Positions 32,956 through 39,103 of a stretch of 64,000 nt of DNA are shown in pieces. This stretch comes from Lacinutrix venerupis (lineage in GTDB: Bacteria > Bacteroidota > Bacteroidia > Flavobacteriales > Flavobacteriaceae). A program made the position numbers and the translations under genes. How positions within the stretch are numbered: the stretch's first letter is position 1; every line of letters starts with the position of its first letter. The stretch spans positions 434,001 through 498,000 of the forward strand of contig NZ_RCCH01000001.1 of the NCBI RefSeq assembly GCF_003663945.1, in the 5' to 3' direction. The notes under the pieces were generated by a model. That model saw only the letters and a program-made list of their open reading frames with translations, did not search any database and was not told the origin of the DNA.

Positions 32956-33281
32956 TTATAACTTAATGGATACGTTGGATTTTCACCATTACTTGCCTTA
33001 ATAGCATTTACTATTGGATATAATATTGAAAAAACTCCTAAAACTATAAAACCTAATAAACCAAGTCCAAATAGAAGTATTAAAGGAATACAGATAATAA
33101 AATTAACAATTAAACTTAATTGAAAATTAATATTTTTTTTTCCTTGTTCATCAATATGGTAGTCTTCATCCTTTTTAGTGAACCATATTATTAATGGAAC
33201 AATAAGTCCTCCACAACCTGTAATTGCTGTTAGTAATTGACTTAAATGAGTAATTACTAATAATTGTCTGTCTCCTTGCAT
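32946..33281 (-). CDS. DUF4870 family small membrane protein
   Basis: About 111 residues with three hydrophobic helices: LSQLLTAITGCGGLIVPLII, LSLIVNFIICIPLILL and LGFIVLGVFSILYPIV. Between helices 1 and 2 lies TKKDEDYHIDEQGKKNINFQ, the DUF4870 signature (D..G....NFQ). The role is unknown. A TTG 33 bases upstream would extend it, but the ATG at 33281 is preferred. The small glycine-rich ORF overlaps its stop. Confidence 0.8.
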   Translation of the reverse strand: MQGDRQLLVITHLSQLLTAITGCGGLIVPLIIWFTKKDEDYHIDEQGKKNINFQLSLIVNFIICIPLILLFGLGLLGFIVLGVFSILYPIVNAIKASNGENPTYPLSYKFI

Positions 33282-33336
33282 AGTATTTTGATTTAGTTGC
33301 TGAATCTTCAGCAAGATTGATTGATACTAATAAGAC

Positions 33337-33357
33337 TAACAATTTAGCAAATTGTTA
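33337..33357. terminator. Inverted repeat after the YeeE pair
   Basis: TAACAATTT and AAATTGTTA form a 9-bp stem with loop AGC, between the end of the second YeeE gene and the start of the DUF4870 gene. On the minus strand it may be a weak terminator or a DNA site for DUF4870. The half-site TGTTACA overlaps its right end. Confidence 0.45.
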
Positions 33358-33377
33358 CAACTATAAATGTTAAAATA

Positions 33378-33791
33378 TTAATGAGGTAATTTATTTTTAA
33401 CTAATCCGTATAGAAAAGTTCCAAGTGTAGCACTAATTAAAACAATTAAAATTGGTAGGTAACCTGCTCCTACAAGAACAAATATAGGTCCAGGACATGC
33501 TCCTGCTAAAGCCCAACCTAAACCAAAAATAATACCTCCAAACATATATCTTGAAAAAGATTTACTTTTAGGTGCTATTGTTATTGGTTGCCCATCAAAA
33601 GATTTAACATTGAAACGTTTTATTAAGAAAACAAATAAAACACCAAAAACTAATGCGGTACCAATAATACCGTACATATGAAAAGATTCAAAACGAAACA
33701 TTTCATAAATACGAAACCATGAAGCAGCTTCAGATTTATACATAACAATACCAAAGAAAAAACCTATAAATATATATAATAACTGTTTCAT
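33378..33791 (-). CDS. YeeE/YedE family sulfur transporter, small subunit (DUF6691-like)
   Basis: This 137-residue membrane protein has four hydrophobic helices and the conserved cysteine motif GACPGPIFVLVGAGY. YeeE/YedE proteins carry sulfur species such as thiosulfate through cysteine thiols in short helices (shown for YeeE). It follows the longer YeeE protein by six bases. Two-gene halves of this kind are often encoded next to rhodanese and persulfide dioxygenase genes, as here. Confidence 0.88.
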   Translation of the reverse strand: MKQLLYIFIGFFFGIVMYKSEAASWFRIYEMFRFESFHMYGIIGTALVFGVLFVFLIKRFNVKSFDGQPITIAPKSKSFSRYMFGGIIFGLGWALAGACPGPIFVLVGAGYLPILIVLISATLGTFLYGLVKNKLPH

Positions 33792-33797
33792 AAAATT

Positions 33798-34352
33798 TTA
33801 AAAAATAAAAGGGAATAATAAATGAACCATAACTAGTCCTCCAATAAAGAAACCAATTACAGCAATTAAAGATGGTAATTGTAAATTACTTAATCCTGAA
33901 ATAGCATGACCAGAAGTACAACCTCCAGCATAACGGGCACCAAAACCAATTAATAAACCACCAACTACTAAAATTAATATTGTTTTAATATCGCTTAGAG
34001 CTTCTATTGAAAAAAGCTCTACAGGTAAATATCCATTTTCTGTAGAAATATTTAATTGAGTTAATGCCACTTTTGTAGCTTCACTTATTTCTGGAATTTC
34101 TGGATTAGATAGATAATGAGAGGCTACAAAACCACCTAACATTGCACCTAAAACAACTAATAAATTCCATTTGTCTGATTTCCAATCAAAATTAAAAAAC
34201 GAACTCGCTTTACCTGCTCCACATGCTGCACAAAATGTTCTTAAATTAGAAGACATTCCAAACTTTTTGCCCATTAGCAAAAGAACTAACATTATACATG
34301 CAATTAAAAAGCCTGAAACGTACCAAGGCCAAGGTTGATAAATAATTTCCAT
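33798..34352 (-). CDS. YeeE/YedE family sulfur transporter, large subunit
   Basis: This 184-residue protein has about five hydrophobic helices, with conserved cysteines in FCAACGAGKASSFF and in GGCTSGHAISG, the latter being the YeeE core motif. Together with the smaller protein it probably imports a sulfur-containing anion or moves persulfide-type sulfur. A promoter/operator pair lies 18-62 bases upstream, so this is its own transcription unit, distinct from the rhodanese gene. Confidence 0.9.
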   Translation of the reverse strand: MEIIYQPWPWYVSGFLIACIMLVLLLMGKKFGMSSNLRTFCAACGAGKASSFFNFDWKSDKWNLLVVLGAMLGGFVASHYLSNPEIPEISEATKVALTQLNISTENGYLPVELFSIEALSDIKTILILVVGGLLIGFGARYAGGCTSGHAISGLSNLQLPSLIAVIGFFIGGLVMVHLLFPFIF

Positions 34353-34369
34353 TAGTTAATTTTTTGTTT

Positions 34370-34414
34370 CAAATATAGTTTTTTAAACAAGTATTAATTG
34401 TAACAATAGTAACA
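34370..34414 (-). promoter_or_regulatory. Promoter and Crp/Fnr-type site of the YeeE pair
   Basis: On the minus strand TATATTTG (34370-34377) is the -7 element. TGTAACAATAGTAACA (34399-34414) is a degenerate form of the palindrome TGTAACAnnTGTTACA, with two mismatches. The centres are 33 bp apart, the same distance as in the other two sulfur promoters. Confidence 0.65.
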
Positions 34415-34455
34415 CAACTGCATCCTTATTTTTACATAATTACACATGCTTATTA

Positions 34456-34496
34456 AAAAAACGTGTATTACAATTTGTAACACACGTTTTTACTTA
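34456..34496 (-). terminator. Terminator of the MBL/rhodanese gene
   Basis: AAAAACGTGT (34457-34466) pairs with ACACGTTTTT (34482-34491). The loop holds the palindrome TTACAATTTGTAA. The hairpin follows the stop at 34512 on the minus strand. Confidence 0.7.
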
Positions 34497-34511
34497 TTTA
34501 TTAATAATGAT

Positions 34512-35924
34512 TTATAATGTTGATGGGCAAACGTAATCTGTTCTAGGTATTGACGTTTTTTTAATTGCGCCATAACCTCCTTCTACATTTATTAAGTTGT
34601 GAATTCCTCTACTTTTAAGTATTGATGCTGCTATTACAGATCTATAACCACCTGCGCAATGCACATAAAAAGGTTTGTTTTCTGGAAATTTATCTAGATG
34701 ACTATTAATATTATCTAAAGCCGTATGTTTTGCATCTACAATATGTTCAGACTTAAACTCGCCATCTTTTCTAACATCGAAAACAACATCTTTATTTTCT
34801 GGATATTGCTTTTCAAATTCTTCTGTAGAAATTGAAGCCATAGTGTCGTACTCCATTCCTGTATCTTTCCAAGAATTAAAACCACCTTCTAAATAACCTA
34901 TAACATTATCGAAACCAACACGAGATAAACGTGTTATTACTTCTTCTTCTCTTCCTTCTGGAGTTACTAATAATATTGGTTGACTAACGTCTGCTATTAA
35001 TGCTCCTACCCATGGTGCAAAACCTCCATCGATACCTATAAAAATAGATCTTGGAATATGACCTTTAACAAATTCTTTTTGATGACGTACATCTAAAACT
35101 ATTGCTTCTGTTTCGTTAGCAGCTGCTTCAAAGGCTTTAGGTGATAATGGTTTTTGAGATTTTGTCATCACATTATCGAAACTTTCGTAACCTTTAATAT
35201 TCATCATTACGTTTTGTGGAAAATATGCTGGAGGCTCTGCTAAACCGTCTAAAAGCTCTGCTATAAATTCCTCTTTAGTCATATCTGCACGAAGTGCGTA
35301 ATTAACTTCTTTTTGATTCCCTAAAGTATCTGTGGTTTCTTTACTCATGTTTTTACCACATGCAGATCCTGCTCCATGAGCTGGATAAACAATAATATTA
35401 TCTGGTAATGTCATGATTTTGTTTCTTAAAGAATCAAATAAATAACCAGCTAATTTTTCTTGAGTTAAATCTGAGGCAATTTTTTGTGCTAAATCTGGGC
35501 GCCCAACGTCTCCAATAAATAAAGTGTCTCCGGTTACAATACCATGTTCTTTACCATTTTCATCTATAAGGAGGTATGTTGTACTTTCCATAGTATGACC
35601 CGGTGTATGGATTACTTTTATCTTATAGTCACCAATTTCAAATATTTGTCCATCTTCTGCTATTAAAGCATCGTAAGATGGCTTTGCTGTAGGTCCAAAT
35701 ACAATTTGAGCTCCTGTTTTCTTTTTTAAATCTAAATGCCCTGAAACAAAATCTGCATGAAAATGTGTTTCAAAAATATATTTTACTTTAGCATCGTCTA
35801 ATTTTGCTCTTTTTATATAAGGTTGCACCTCTCTTAATGGATCTATAATAGCTGCCTCTCCATTACTTTCTATGTAATAAGCTGCATGTGCTAAGCATCC
35901 TGTATAAATTTGTTCTACCTTCAT
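34512..35924 (-). CDS. Persulfide dioxygenase-like MBL hydrolase fused to two rhodanese domains
   Basis: This 470-residue protein has an N-terminal metallo-beta-lactamase domain with ETHFHADFVSGH, GHTMESTTYL and GDTLFIGDVGRPD, the pattern of ETHE1/BLH persulfide dioxygenases. These oxidise glutathione-type or other low-molecular-weight persulfides to sulfite. Two rhodanese domains follow. The first (about residues 265-360) has no cysteine where the active-site loop should be (VTPEGREEE). The second has CAGGYR with the catalytic cysteine. It is flanked by sulfur transporters and a Crp/Fnr gene. Confidence 0.9.
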   Translation of the reverse strand: MKVEQIYTGCLAHAAYYIESNGEAAIIDPLREVQPYIKRAKLDDAKVKYIFETHFHADFVSGHLDLKKKTGAQIVFGPTAKPSYDALIAEDGQIFEIGDYKIKVIHTPGHTMESTTYLLIDENGKEHGIVTGDTLFIGDVGRPDLAQKIASDLTQEKLAGYLFDSLRNKIMTLPDNIIVYPAHGAGSACGKNMSKETTDTLGNQKEVNYALRADMTKEEFIAELLDGLAEPPAYFPQNVMMNIKGYESFDNVMTKSQKPLSPKAFEAAANETEAIVLDVRHQKEFVKGHIPRSIFIGIDGGFAPWVGALIADVSQPILLVTPEGREEEVITRLSRVGFDNVIGYLEGGFNSWKDTGMEYDTMASISTEEFEKQYPENKDVVFDVRKDGEFKSEHIVDAKHTALDNINSHLDKFPENKPFYVHCAGGYRSVIAASILKSRGIHNLINVEGGYGAIKKTSIPRTDYVCPSTL

Positions 35925-35943
35925 TTTATCTATTTTAATTCTT

Positions 35944-35988
35944 CAAATTTACTAATGTTTTTAAATTTTTATAGTAACAAAAGTTACA
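35944..35988 (-). promoter_or_regulatory. Promoter and Crp/Fnr-type site of the MBL/rhodanese gene
   Basis: On the minus strand TAAATTTG (35944-35951) is the -7 element. AGTAACAAAAGTTACA (35973-35988) contains the perfect arms GTAAC and GTTAC around four bases. The site centre is 33 bp upstream of the -7 centre, that is near -41 from the start of transcription, the classical class II activator position. Confidence 0.75.
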
Positions 35989-35992
35989 ATTA

Positions 35993-36787
35993 TCATTTTG
36001 TTAACTCTTTAAAAATGATATAAACCGACATTGCTAAAACAAACCACCCAAAACTCTTTTTTAATTTTCTACTAGAAATAAATTTTGAAAAGTAACCTCC
36101 TACTAAAATTCCTAAAATGGTTACAAAAGAAAATGTTAGTAAAAATTTCCAGTCTATACTTAAAACTTGTACATCTCCAGCAAATCCAATTAAAGAGTTT
36201 ATTGCTATAATTATTAAAGATGTCCCTACAGCTTTTTTCATGTCTAAACCTGCCCAAAGCACTAATGCTGGCACATATAGAAAGCCTCCTCCAGCTCCTA
36301 TTAATCCTGTAACAATACCTATAAATATACCTTGTAAAAAGGTTTTAAAATATGCTTGTGGTTTTCTCTCTTCTGTAGCATTTTTTTTAGACTTTATCAT
36401 TGAAAAGGCAGATAGAAACATAATTACTGCAAAAAATATCATGATTGCCATTCCCTTTGTAAATGAAAAATCACCAAAAGTAAAAAGTGTTTCTGGTATT
36501 GCTGGCACTAAAAACCGTCTTGAAAAATACACCGCAATAAATGATGGAAACGAGAATATTAATCCTGTTTTAAAATCTACTAGGCCTTTTTTATGTTTTT
36601 GTATAACTCCAACCAAAGAAGAAGATCCTACTACAAATAAAGAGTATGCGGTAGCTATTACAGGATTAAAGCTTAAAAAATATACTAATAAAGGTACTGT
36701 TAAAATTGAACCTCCGCCACCTATTAATCCTAGAATTGCTCCAATTAAAAAAGCGCCAAAGTATGTTATAATTTGCTGTATATCCAT
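35993..36787 (-). CDS. TauE/SafE family sulfite exporter-like permease
   Basis: About 264 residues with eight hydrophobic helices and the family repeats IGAILGLIGGGGSILTVPLL and TGLIGAGGGFLYVPALVL. TauE/SafE proteins export sulfite, sulfoacetate or related organosulfonates. Next to a persulfide dioxygenase, whose product is sulfite, sulfite export is the natural role. A TTG 21 bases upstream was rejected in favour of the ATG at 36787, which also gives the same leader length as the other sulfur genes. Confidence 0.9.
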   Translation of the reverse strand: MDIQQIITYFGAFLIGAILGLIGGGGSILTVPLLVYFLSFNPVIATAYSLFVVGSSSLVGVIQKHKKGLVDFKTGLIFSFPSFIAVYFSRRFLVPAIPETLFTFGDFSFTKGMAIMIFFAVIMFLSAFSMIKSKKNATEERKPQAYFKTFLQGIFIGIVTGLIGAGGGFLYVPALVLWAGLDMKKAVGTSLIIIAINSLIGFAGDVQVLSIDWKFLLTFSFVTILGILVGGYFSKFISSRKLKKSFGWFVLAMSVYIIFKELTK

Positions 36788-36805
36788 TTTAAGGTAAGTT
36801 GAATG

Positions 36806-36850
36806 CAAACTTAATTTACATTTCTAACTTAATTTGTAACATCTGTTACA
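36806..36850 (-). promoter_or_regulatory. Promoter and perfect Crp/Fnr-type palindrome of the TauE gene
   Basis: On the minus strand TAAGTTTG (36806-36813) is the -7 element. TGTAACATCTGTTACA (36835-36850) has perfect 7-bp arms around TC. The centres are 33 bp apart. The site sits in the 66-base gap between the TauE gene and the Crp/Fnr regulator gene. Confidence 0.8.
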
Positions 36851-36853
36851 TTG

Positions 36854-37486
36854 TTATAATTCTAGAATTTTAATATTATTTCTATGTAATTCTATTTTTC
36901 CATCAATCTCTAAAGTTTTTAATAATCTAGAAATAACTACACGAGAGGTGTGTAAATCGTTAGCAATTTGTTGGTGTGTAACATGTATAACTTCATTATG
37001 GTTAACCATTGCTTTATCTTTAAGATATTTAAATAAGCGTTCGTCCATTTTTAAAAATGCAATAGTATCTACTGCTTCAAGAAGCTCTGTCATGCGATTA
37101 TGGTAGCTTTGTAATACAAAATTTTGCCAACTTTTATATTTAGAAAGCCATACTTCCATTTTCTCGACTGGCACCATAATTAATTTGGTATCTGTTTCTG
37201 CAATGGCTCTAATTTCGCTTTTAGCGTTTCCTAAACAACAAGAAAGCGTCATTGCACAAGTGTCTCCATGTTCTAAAAAATAGAGAATGAGTTCTTCTCC
37301 ATCTTTATCTTCTCGTAAAATTTTAACAGCTCCACTTACCAAAAGCGGCATCGATTTTATATAATCTCCTATTTCAATTAATTTAAAACCTTCTGGTACA
37401 TCTTTGTATGTGCCAACGTTATTAATTTCTTGAAGTAATTCGTCTTCAAATAAATAACCGTATTGTTCTTTAAGCTCTTTTAACAT
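36854..37486 (-). CDS. Crp/Fnr regulator of the sulfur module
   Basis: This 210-residue protein has an N-terminal cNMP-like barrel (about residues 25-125), a dimer helix, and a C-terminal helix-turn-helix (VTHQQIANDLHTSRVVISRL). Its only cysteines are C77, C83 and C84 in DTCAMTLSCCLG, so a thiol or persulfide switch, or a metal site, is possible. It precedes the TauE gene on the same strand. Three palindromes in the promoters of the neighbouring sulfur genes have the spacing expected for it. Target assignment is inferred. No copy of the site is seen upstream of its own start. Confidence 0.88.
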   Translation of the reverse strand: MLKELKEQYGYLFEDELLQEINNVGTYKDVPEGFKLIEIGDYIKSMPLLVSGAVKILREDKDGEELILYFLEHGDTCAMTLSCCLGNAKSEIRAIAETDTKLIMVPVEKMEVWLSKYKSWQNFVLQSYHNRMTELLEAVDTIAFLKMDERLFKYLKDKAMVNHNEVIHVTHQQIANDLHTSRVVISRLLKTLEIDGKIELHRNNIKILEL

Positions 37487-37547
37487 AAACCTTTTTTACG
37501 ATTGTAAATTTAATGTTTTATCATTAGTTAAAATATGAATATTATAT

Positions 37548-38324
37548 TTAAGAATTACTTTTAGGCTTTTGAAAGCACAGAGACAACATTTTAAATAATT
37601 CTGGATGTTTTTGTTTAAACAGTTTTGGTCTTTCGAAAAAGTATTCTGAAGCTACAGCAAAAAATTCGGCTTGACTTGTTCCTCCATATTTTCTAATATC
37701 AGATTCGTTATTATTTATAGCTTCCATTTCTTGGTGCATTAATTCTAACCAAGGTTTTATATAATCTTTTCCTAATAATTGTTCTGGAATACCATCGGTT
37801 TGCCCGTCCATTTTATCTAATAAATGTACAAACTCATGTACAGGTGTATTATGCTTATCGGTATCGTTTAAAAACGATTGTCTTAAAGCTTTTCTAGAAA
37901 GAATCATTTGTTTTTCAAAACGACCAGTTCCAACCATTCCAAGGATTTTTCTTGATTTATTTTTTTCATCGAATTGCAAATCTTCATCAAAAGTATCTGG
38001 ATACAATATAATACCACTTAAATTTTTGTAATGCCACTCTTTAAAACCAAAAACAGGAATAATTGCACTTGCTGCAATAAGAATTCTATCTAACTCTTCT
38101 ATTTCTATTTTTACACTGTCTATTGTAACTTCAGTAAAAAAAAGCATCATTCTATTCTGAAATATTTTTTGATTCTTTTTAGATAATTTTGAATAGAACA
38201 GTACGTTTTCTGTTAAAATTTTATGCCAATGTTTAGGAAACGCTTCTTGTTTTTTTTGAGCTGTTTTTGTAAATGCATAGACTGCAAACGCAACTAAACC
38301 AATAAATATAATAATGTATACCAT
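37548..38324 (-). CDS. mtfA: MtfA-like zinc peptidase (M90)
   Basis: About 258 residues. An N-terminal membrane helix (VYIIIFIGLVAFAVYAF) precedes a zinc metallopeptidase domain with HEFVHLLDKMDGQTDG (HExxH) and a downstream glutamate in QAEFFAVASEYFF. E. coli MtfA binds the repressor Mlc and is a zinc-dependent peptidase; the partner in this organism is unknown. An upstream GTG at 38354 was rejected in favour of the ATG at 38324, which opens the membrane helix. Confidence 0.85.
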   Translation of the reverse strand: MVYIIIFIGLVAFAVYAFTKTAQKKQEAFPKHWHKILTENVLFYSKLSKKNQKIFQNRMMLFFTEVTIDSVKIEIEELDRILIAASAIIPVFGFKEWHYKNLSGIILYPDTFDEDLQFDEKNKSRKILGMVGTGRFEKQMILSRKALRQSFLNDTDKHNTPVHEFVHLLDKMDGQTDGIPEQLLGKDYIKPWLELMHQEMEAINNNESDIRKYGGTSQAEFFAVASEYFFERPKLFKQKHPELFKMLSLCFQKPKSNS

Positions 38325-38414
38325 AAAAGTTATGTAATAAGTATAAAGAAACACTAATATTTTTAAATTTATTTATGTTTTAAAAAAGATTAACATCTAA
38401 TGTTTTTAACCTTT

Positions 38415-38422
38415 TATATTTG
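38415..38422 (+). promoter_or_regulatory. Candidate -7 element, HAD hydrolase gene
   Basis: TATATTTG matches TAnnTTTG and lies 15 bases before the ATG at 38438, giving a leader of about ten bases. It covers the upstream TTG, which argues against that start. Confidence 0.5.
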
Positions 38423-38437
38423 CATAAAAAACAACGT

Positions 38438-39103
38438 ATGTTAAAAGCAGTATTATTTGATATGGATGGTGTAATTGTAGATACAGAGCCATTACACAAA
38501 AAAGCTTATTTTTTAATGTTCGATGCTTTTAATATTGAAGTATCTGAAACACTGTACGAGTCTACTACAGGACAATCTACAATTAATGTTTGTAGAGAAC
38601 TTTGCGACATTTTTAATTTGAAAGATAAGCCAGAAACATTAATGCTAACTAAGCGTAAAATATTTACAGATTTGTTTCATAGTGATCCTGCTTTACAATT
38701 AATTGATGGTGTATTAGATTTAATTAAAGATTATCATAAAAATGGTCTTACTCTTGTCCTAGCATCTTCGGCATCTATGCAAACCATTACAAATGTTTTT
38801 AATCGTTTTGGTTTAGACCAATATTTTAAAGCTAAAATTAGTGGTGCAGACTTAAAAGCCTCTAAACCGCATCCTGAAATTTTTGAAAAAGCAGCAGAAT
38901 TAGCTGGTTTTTCGAAAAATAATTGTTTGGTTATTGAAGACTCTACAAATGGTATTAAAGCAGCAAAAGCAGCAGGTATATACTGTGTTGGTTATGATAG
39001 CCACCACTCTAAAAACCAAGATTATAGTTTAGCAGATTTAGTAGTTAACGATTTTTCTTTAATTAAGTATAGTTTAATATCTGAAAGATTTAAAACAGTA
39101 TAA
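38438..39103 (+). CDS. HAD family phosphatase, beta-phosphoglucomutase-like
   Basis: About 221 residues. It has motif I in FDMDGVIVDTEPLH (nucleophile and acid-base aspartates), motif II in LASSASMQT, motif III lysine in KPHPEIFEKA, and motif IV in VIEDSTNGIKAA, with a four-helix cap between motifs I and II. This is the subfamily I plan of beta-phosphoglucomutases and sugar-phosphate phosphatases. The substrate cannot be told. It is monocistronic on the plus strand and converges with rnz. Confidence 0.88.
   Translation: MLKAVLFDMDGVIVDTEPLHKKAYFLMFDAFNIEVSETLYESTTGQSTINVCRELCDIFNLKDKPETLMLTKRKIFTDLFHSDPALQLIDGVLDLIKDYHKNGLTLVLASSASMQTITNVFNRFGLDQYFKAKISGADLKASKPHPEIFEKAAELAGFSKNNCLVIEDSTNGIKAAKAAGIYCVGYDSHHSKNQDYSLADLVVNDFSLIKYSLISERFKTV

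Follow-up and report, generated by a model that had tools for sequence, protein, structure and literature searches.

A Crp/Fnr-family regulator and operators of fixed geometry in a probable sulfide/persulfide-defence regulon of Lacinutrix venerupis and related Flavobacteriaceae

The cst operon of Staphylococcus aureus encodes CstR, TauE, CstB and SQR, in which CstR is a repressor of the CsoR family and CstB has the layout MBL-rhodanese-rhodanese (MBL, metallo-beta-lactamase fold). The same sulfide/persulfide detoxification unit, consisting of TauE and a CstB-type MBL-rhodanese protein, is encoded in a stretch of 64,000 nt of the Lacinutrix venerupis genome (assembly GCF_003663945.1, contig NZ_RCCH01000001.1, positions 434,001-498,000 of the forward strand), which was analysed as a whole and is called the window here. 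Beside this unit lie a gene for a Crp/Fnr-family protein, referred to below as the adjacent Crp, and three promoters with putative Crp/Fnr operators. In this putative sulfide/persulfide-defence regulon, a predicted Crp/Fnr activator takes the role that CstR, BigR/SqrR or FisR has in other bacteria, and it is likely that the adjacent Crp activates the regulon in class II style.

CstB and cst are mentioned in a sulfide/persulfide context in PMC9774590 and PMC7315123, which also describe two other types of regulators. FisR, from Cupriavidus and Acinetobacter, is a persulfide-responsive activator of PDO, SQR and TauE genes that senses its signal through three conserved cysteines. BigR/SqrR, which belong to the ArsR family, regulate PDO/Blh, SQR and YeeE-type genes by cysteine-based polysulfide sensing. 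The L. venerupis locus differs from each of these systems. A Crp/Fnr protein replaces CstR, and no match to the CsoR family (PF02583) was found in the genome. FisR is sigma-54-dependent, whereas the adjacent Crp would act at a sigma-A-type promoter, and BigR/SqrR are repressors of another family.

Two further systems offer points of comparison. For HcpR2, Rodionov et al. (2005; PMC1274295) used comparative genomics to predict the operator core GTAACnnnnGTTAC, identical to that found here. However, HcpR2 is assigned there to hcp, and its residue at the CRP Glu181 position is Pro (or Ser/Gln), whereas the adjacent Crp has Val at this position and stands among sulfur genes, and the L. venerupis genome has no match to hcp (PF03063). 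PgRsp of P. gingivalis, like the adjacent Crp, is a Bacteroidota Crp/Fnr protein, and PMC6955866 presents it as a redox regulator; it differs in its reported binding of haem and its effects on oxidative-stress and virulence genes. The features of the locus, in window coordinates, are as follows.

36854..37486, minus strand: Crp/Fnr-family regulator (the adjacent Crp), 210 aa, with Pfam cNMP_binding (PF00027) and HTH_Crp_2 (PF13545) above cut-off
36835..36850, minus strand: putative Crp/Fnr operator upstream of tauE, TGTAACAGATGTTACA, a TGTAACN4GTTACA-type palindrome
36806..36813, minus strand: -7 box of the tauE promoter, TAAGTTTG, of the form TAnnTTTG
35993..36787, minus strand: TauE/SafE-family exporter (tauE), 264 aa, Pfam PF01925
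35973..35988, minus strand: putative Crp/Fnr operator upstream of the MBL-rhodanese gene, TGTAACTTTTGTTACT, a palindrome
35944..35951, minus strand: -7 box of the MBL-rhodanese promoter, TAAATTTG, of the form TAnnTTTG
34512..35924, minus strand: MBL fold and two rhodanese-like stretches by Pfam (mbl), 470 aa, a candidate CstB-like persulfide dioxygenase/sulfurtransferase
34399..34414, minus strand: putative Crp/Fnr operator upstream of yeeE1, TGTTACTATTGTTACA, a palindrome
34370..34377, minus strand: -7 box of the yeeE1 promoter, TATATTTG, of the form TAnnTTTG
33798..34352, minus strand: YeeE/YedE (Sulf_transp) half-transporter (yeeE1), 184 aa, PF04143
33378..33791, minus strand: YeeE/YedE-DUF6691 half-transporter (yeeE2), 137 aa, PF04143 and PF20398

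The three palindromes and their TAnnTTTG boxes had been noticed earlier from the sequence alone. They are indeed present at the positions given in this original prediction, and the identical spacing that it described is exact, since in 3/3 promoters the box starts 37 bases past the first base of the site, which gives a centre-to-centre distance of 33.0 bp. The distance between site and start codon, put at 47-49 bp in the prediction, is 47 bases for tauE (taking the ATG at 36787 as its start) and 48 for the MBL-rhodanese gene, while the 46 bases of yeeE1 fall below that range. Without the spacing, the palindrome is only moderately rare, with 24 matches at up to 3 mismatches in the window versus 8.9 expected. 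The complete pattern TGTWACN4GTWACA-N21-TANNTTTG has, in the whole 3.12 Mb genome, 51 matches at up to 3 mismatches versus 32 for the reversed-pattern control, which indicates that weak matches are mostly due to chance. At 0-1 mismatch, the genome holds three such places only, the promoters of tauE, the MBL-rhodanese gene and yeeE1, in agreement with the view that three matches in spacing would hardly arise by chance. Coincidence was rejected in view of this rarity together with the shuffles and the conservation described below.

The position of the sites relative to transcription can be estimated by analogy. Mapped promoters of F. psychrophilum have the TAnnTTTG box between -12 and -5 (PMC9723704). 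Combined with the 33 bp spacing, this mapping, which comes from F. psychrophilum rather than from L. venerupis, would centre the operator on -41.5, which is the class II activator position. The earlier placement of the sites near -41 is thus compatible with the borrowed box position.

Conservation was assessed in 80 loci of named genomes, picked by Crp similarity, in most of which tauE and mbl come after crp in the same orientation. Scoring was confined to upstream regions of genes whose start could be located (50 for tauE, 61 for mbl and 12 for yeeE1); a conserved site was defined as the palindrome plus the box at offset 36-38 with at most 2 mismatches, and dinucleotide shuffles served as the control. 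Site and box are kept upstream of tauE in 39/50 regions and upstream of mbl in 49/61, with shuffle means of at most 0.02 in both cases. Hence, the conservation expected in relatives that keep the gene cluster was found for these two genes and is weaker for yeeE. Following 426 palindrome strand-hits (up to 1 mismatch) in the 80 loci, the box starts at offset 37 in 146 cases and at offset 36 in 12, and any other offset within 30-43 accounts for at most 2 cases.

In the mbl promoters, of which 36 of the 49 (those with offset 37 and full flanks) entered the profile, information resides in the box and in both arms of the palindrome, which reach up to 3 bits. The spacer mostly stays below 0.5 bit, offset 31 alone reaching 1.0 bit, and its length is constant while its sequence drifts. 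The corresponding tauE profile, built from one sequence, was left aside. TTG at the -33 position occurs in 1/36 of these promoters; its absence from the others and the location of the operator centre 33 bp above the box fit activation. Moreover, where crp and tauE are 45-200 bp apart, 39/42 loci have the tauE site, compared with 0/7 where the gap is shorter, as an operon reading predicts. Two loci outside these gap classes, L052 (crp and tauE overlap) and L107 (1032 bp gap), both lack the tauE site. Autoregulation of crp was considered as a general feature and rejected, as a correctly spaced site within 400 bp upstream of crp occurs in 1/49 loci, one of the 49 (L110) having almost no upstream sequence.

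The link between the operator and the regulator was examined in 299 Flavobacteriaceae genomes, using a strict site-plus-spacing pattern and a cut-off of E<=1e-30 for Crp homologues. Such a homologue is present in 255/299 genomes, and the strict pattern is matched in 216/299, compared with 6/299 for the reversed pattern. The site was found in 212/255 Crp-positive genomes versus 4/44 Crp-negative ones, a strongly positive outcome of the co-occurrence check suggested earlier. The frequency of the site follows the similarity of the best Crp homologue, with 133/137 genomes at E below 1e-85, 71/97 between 1e-85 and 1e-60, 8/21 between 1e-60 and 1e-30, and 4/44 without a homologue; these classes were transcribed by hand, and a second independent transcription gave the same numbers. 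Across the phylum, the Crp lineage was detected at E<=1e-30 in 111/296 sampled Bacteroidota genomes.

A second line of evidence comes from the recognition helix of the adjacent Crp, SRVVISRLLK. Residue 183 of this helix corresponds to Glu181 of CRP, a position that Rodionov et al. (PMC1274295) tied to the GTAAC-type motifs of HcpR2. Val183 occurs in 78/78 aligned close homologues, an alignment of the window protein and 77 of the 80 loci from which the partial sequences of L109-L111 were dropped. From a set of 40 loci of more distant origin, the majority belonging to other families of Bacteroidota, L227 was dropped because of a broken frame, and 21/39 could be scored while 18 could not. Loci with Val183 have two A-type half-sites in 9/10 scored cases, and those with Glu183 have at least one GTGAC half in 11/11, under a scoring rule that was fixed after the sequences had been viewed. 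In the lone exception, L251, the stretch also contains a second Crp-like gene. The Fisher p value of 3e-5 for this covariation overstates independence, because L221-L223 are near-copies and the tree requires 6 changes of the Val/Glu label. When the distant loci are pooled with those of the Flavobacteriaceae discussed below that lack a strict match, Val goes without a G half in 25/30 and Glu with a G half in 12/13, with the same kinship caveat and with the Thr-type L276, which has two G halves, left out.

These data suggest that in distant relatives the operator base largely follows residue 183, Val going with TGTAAC and Glu with TGTGAC. The sites match the TGTNA...TNACA-type palindromic operator of the Crp/Fnr superfamily, and binding by the adjacent Crp is predicted. 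Covariation and co-occurrence together are the best evidence that the Crp family reads this operator, as comparative data would have it, and both back the adjacent Crp/Fnr gene as the candidate regulator, as originally proposed.

Membership of the regulon was surveyed in 150 loci. Loci L112-L191 were chosen by the pattern and supply 98/278 promoter-gene pairs, the later 40 regions being hand-picked from listed places. There were 283 promoter matches in 142/150 loci. A downstream frame was present for 278 of them, and these frames make up 36 gene groups, named from the Pfam matches of one representative each ('SQR-like' meaning Pyr_redox_2 plus a reading of the sequences). The groups behind the site include MBL (64), TauE (56), rhodanese (35), an outer-membrane efflux protein (19), SQR-like Pyr_redox_2 (16), AhpC-type peroxiredoxin (14), cytochrome bd subunit I (9), cytochrome c with a Tll0287 domain (8), SulP (8) and HMA (6), as well as smaller ones such as Thioredoxin_9, NrfD, molybdopterin oxidoreductase, OsmC and DUF302. 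MBL and TauE dominate because the 80 loci used for conservation were chosen by Crp similarity; the pattern-selected subset contains MBL 15, efflux protein 12, TauE 10, SQR-like 7, SulP 7 and peroxiredoxin 6. A mechanical rule, the longest frame inside some 320 bp, was used to pick the downstream genes, and for this reason a number of the small groups are probably spurious.

In L. venerupis itself, the geometry recurs with 2 mismatches before a Thioredoxin_9 protein gene (C3:167050), whose product is 61% identical to a relative's target, and before cydA (C9:78713). Both families are also found behind the site in relatives. Reference titles in PMC9774590 indicate that cytochrome bd sustains respiration under sulfide, and for this reason the target set makes physiological sense. 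The gene content thus agrees with the sulfur or persulfide regulon of the original prediction, while the word compact understates it, given two more promoters in the same genome and further families in relatives.

The frequent outer-membrane efflux (TolC-like) gene, with 19 matches in 18 loci (for example, L061:10864-12171), suggests that an efflux system may take part in the sulfide response. Additionally, a small protein of about 120 aa is encoded behind the operator in 5 loci with 5 matches, its representative (L163:1784-2146) having no Pfam match, and a similar-looking small protein stands behind the operator at L178:1995-2354.

The MBL-rhodanese protein is covered nearly over its full length by two PDB entries, 3tp9 (residues 4-457) and 3r2u (residues 4-454), the latter presumably a staphylococcal protein. 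From end to end, it consists of an MBL domain and then two rhodanese-like domains, the layout of CstB, and it is a predicted persulfide dioxygenase-rhodanese. The adjacent Crp scores 55.8 against the NCBIfam CRP equivalog, whose cut-off is 266. FNR, a 4Fe-4S protein, is defined by an N-terminal cysteine cluster plus a central cysteine, and the adjacent Crp does not have this layout, its sole cysteines being residues 77, 83 and 84.

From the computed sites, spacing, conservation, co-occurrence, covariation and gene content, we infer binding, activation (versus repression) and the signal in the following proposed mechanism. The Crp encoded at 36854-37486 would be an activator binding TGTAACN4GTTACA, and the operator at about -41.5 would replace the absent -33 element of a sigma-A promoter, as in class II Crp/Fnr activation. 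It would drive at least five promoters in L. venerupis, those of tauE, the MBL-rhodanese gene, yeeE1-yeeE2, cydA and the thioredoxin-like gene, and in relatives also SQR-like, rhodanese, peroxiredoxin and SulP genes. With the products of these targets, the cell would oxidise both sulfide and persulfides, transport sulfur compounds through the membrane and sustain respiration via a sulfide-tolerant oxidase. Because the regulator gene is generally without the operator, the switch is probably post-translational, and its likeliest form would be persulfide or polysulfide modification of Cys77, Cys83 and Cys84, a group located at the ligand-binding place of other Crp-fold proteins.

These three cysteines are invariant in the 78 aligned close homologues and lie in the GDTCAMTLSCCLGNAKSEIRA segment, which we take to correspond to the cyclic-nucleotide-binding cassette region in CRP. 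The genome encodes six further proteins with a cNMP domain, and none of them has cysteines at this place. The invariance of the three cysteines suggests thiol or persulfide sensing by the adjacent Crp. A broader evolutionary reading appears possible, if somewhat short of probable: in a Bacteroidota Crp lineage, the cyclic-nucleotide pocket may have been converted to a C-x5-CC sensor of sulfane sulfur, making the protein a master activator of sulfide/persulfide defence from a fixed -41.5 operator, with specificity switched several times between TGTAAC and TGTGAC via residue 183 (Val/Glu).

Several observations weigh against regulation of sulfur genes by a cysteine-based Crp sensor at these sites. 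The three-cysteine group is not universal, as Cys83 and/or Cys84 are missing in 8/30 more diverged family members and in many distant relatives, some of them beside mbl/tauE (for example, L228, L231, L237 and L239), with Cys77 mostly kept. Site and box precede yeeE1 in just 2/12 regions; yeeE1 lies close behind mbl in L049, L050, L052 and L056, and in L032 and L037 its palindrome is present without a matching box. A broader thiol, oxidative or metal signal would also suit those genes behind the site that encode peroxiredoxin, OEP/TolC, HMA and cytochrome c proteins. Furthermore, 43/255 Crp-positive genomes lack a strict match. Inspection of 30 of these, the same 30 as in the cysteine count, showed that the Crp locus contains a site-like sequence with at most 1 core mismatch in 23 and none in 7. 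Among the 26 of these 30 genomes with Val183 (the others being 1 Thr and 3 Glu), 20/26 have a site-like sequence, 4 of those 20 with one TGTGAT half that the residue rule does not predict. A switch to TGTGAC was also considered as the cause of the missing strict matches, and mostly it is not, considering the 26/30 loci with Val183 and the 23/30 with a site-like sequence.

The same regulator and operator could work with a haem- or redox-based sensor, similar to PgRsp or CooA, in which Cys77 would be a haem ligand. The best PDB match of the adjacent Crp is 3dv8, which we take to be the Crp homologue of E. rectale. Within the same phylum, the haem-binding Crp/Fnr protein PgRsp was modelled on an E. 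rectale Crp homologue, according to PMC6955866. Retention of Cys77 in most distant relatives examined, where Cys83 and Cys84 are often lost, would suit such a ligand, and cytochrome c, CCP and cytochrome bd genes are found behind the site. All three cysteines are nevertheless invariant in the 78 closest homologues, and the commonest genes behind the site encode persulfide enzymes and TauE, partly through the choice of loci. On balance, a haem-based sensor is considered unlikely.

Other explanations dispense with the adjacent Crp or with activation. Another Crp/Fnr protein of the genome might use the sites instead, particularly an HcpR2-like paralogue with an SRP helix (G000:C4:33844-34512). 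Its helix contains TSRPTLN, and the motif GTAACnnnnGTTAC was assigned to HcpR2 with Pro at the position of CRP Glu181 (PMC1274295). However, this paralogue (E<=1e-30) occurs in 84/299 genomes, and the site is found in 56/84 with it versus 160/215 without it, so that no positive association exists; moreover, the base in the site goes together with residue 183 in the clade of the adjacent Crp. The paralogue was rejected as the true regulator on co-occurrence and on the lack of hcp in the genome, and use of the sites by another Crp/Fnr protein is very improbable. Hardly more credible is the view that the sites are repressor operators or generic features of Bacteroidota promoters. GTGACN4GTYAC is present at the same 33-bp spacing from TAnnTTTR in 92/299 genomes, with zero control matches, which means that the spacing is common to other palindromes. 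Generic features, however, would not account for co-occurrence with Crp, and the operator centre above the box in promoters of which 35/36 in the MBL group have no TTG at -33 suits activation. Activation by the adjacent Crp is preferred here, and the GTGACN4GTYAC matches make the geometry look general for Crp/Fnr-type operators in Flavobacteriaceae, which suggests that other Crp/Fnr paralogues may use the same 33-bp arrangement.

Some further observations were made along the way. In genome G000 (L028, G000:C3:293707), a TGTGACTTTTGTCACA site with an imperfect box precedes a gene resembling a flavoprotein reductase by eye. In five Maribacter loci (L089, L093, L094, L095, L098), perfect TGTAACN4GTTACA palindromes lack a TAnnTTT[GA] box at offsets 30-43; they precede a gene resembling the molybdopterin oxidoreductase of L157, among others, and are possibly subject to a different mode of regulation. 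A second Bacteroidota Crp subfamily has a CIMSFLGG-type cassette, with Cys77 and without Cys83/84 (L228, L230-L234, L237-L240, L254-L256), and some members lie beside mbl/tauE; PgRsp of P. gingivalis may belong to it. Within the window, the inverted repeat AAACGTGTATTACAATTTGTAACACACGTTT (34455-34491), located between the MBL gene and the yeeE operator, is terminator-like and includes GTAAC. A search of 33000-38500 for RNA elements gave no Rfam match at the gathering threshold.

The open-licence literature searched contained no recognisable Crp/Fnr regulator of sulfide/persulfide genes in Bacteroidota, which is not proof of novelty, and how these bacteria, a major group of marine sediments, algae and the gut, sense sulfide or persulfides did not turn up there either. 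The present analysis gives a candidate regulator, an operator, a promoter geometry and a target list. In this way, a candidate with the Crp/Fnr fold joins the known sensors of the CsoR, ArsR, MarR and sigma-54 types. It also provides a simple rule by which promoters activated by Crp/Fnr proteins may be found in Flavobacteriaceae: the operator lies upstream of the TAnnTTTG box, and the centres of the two are 33 bp apart.

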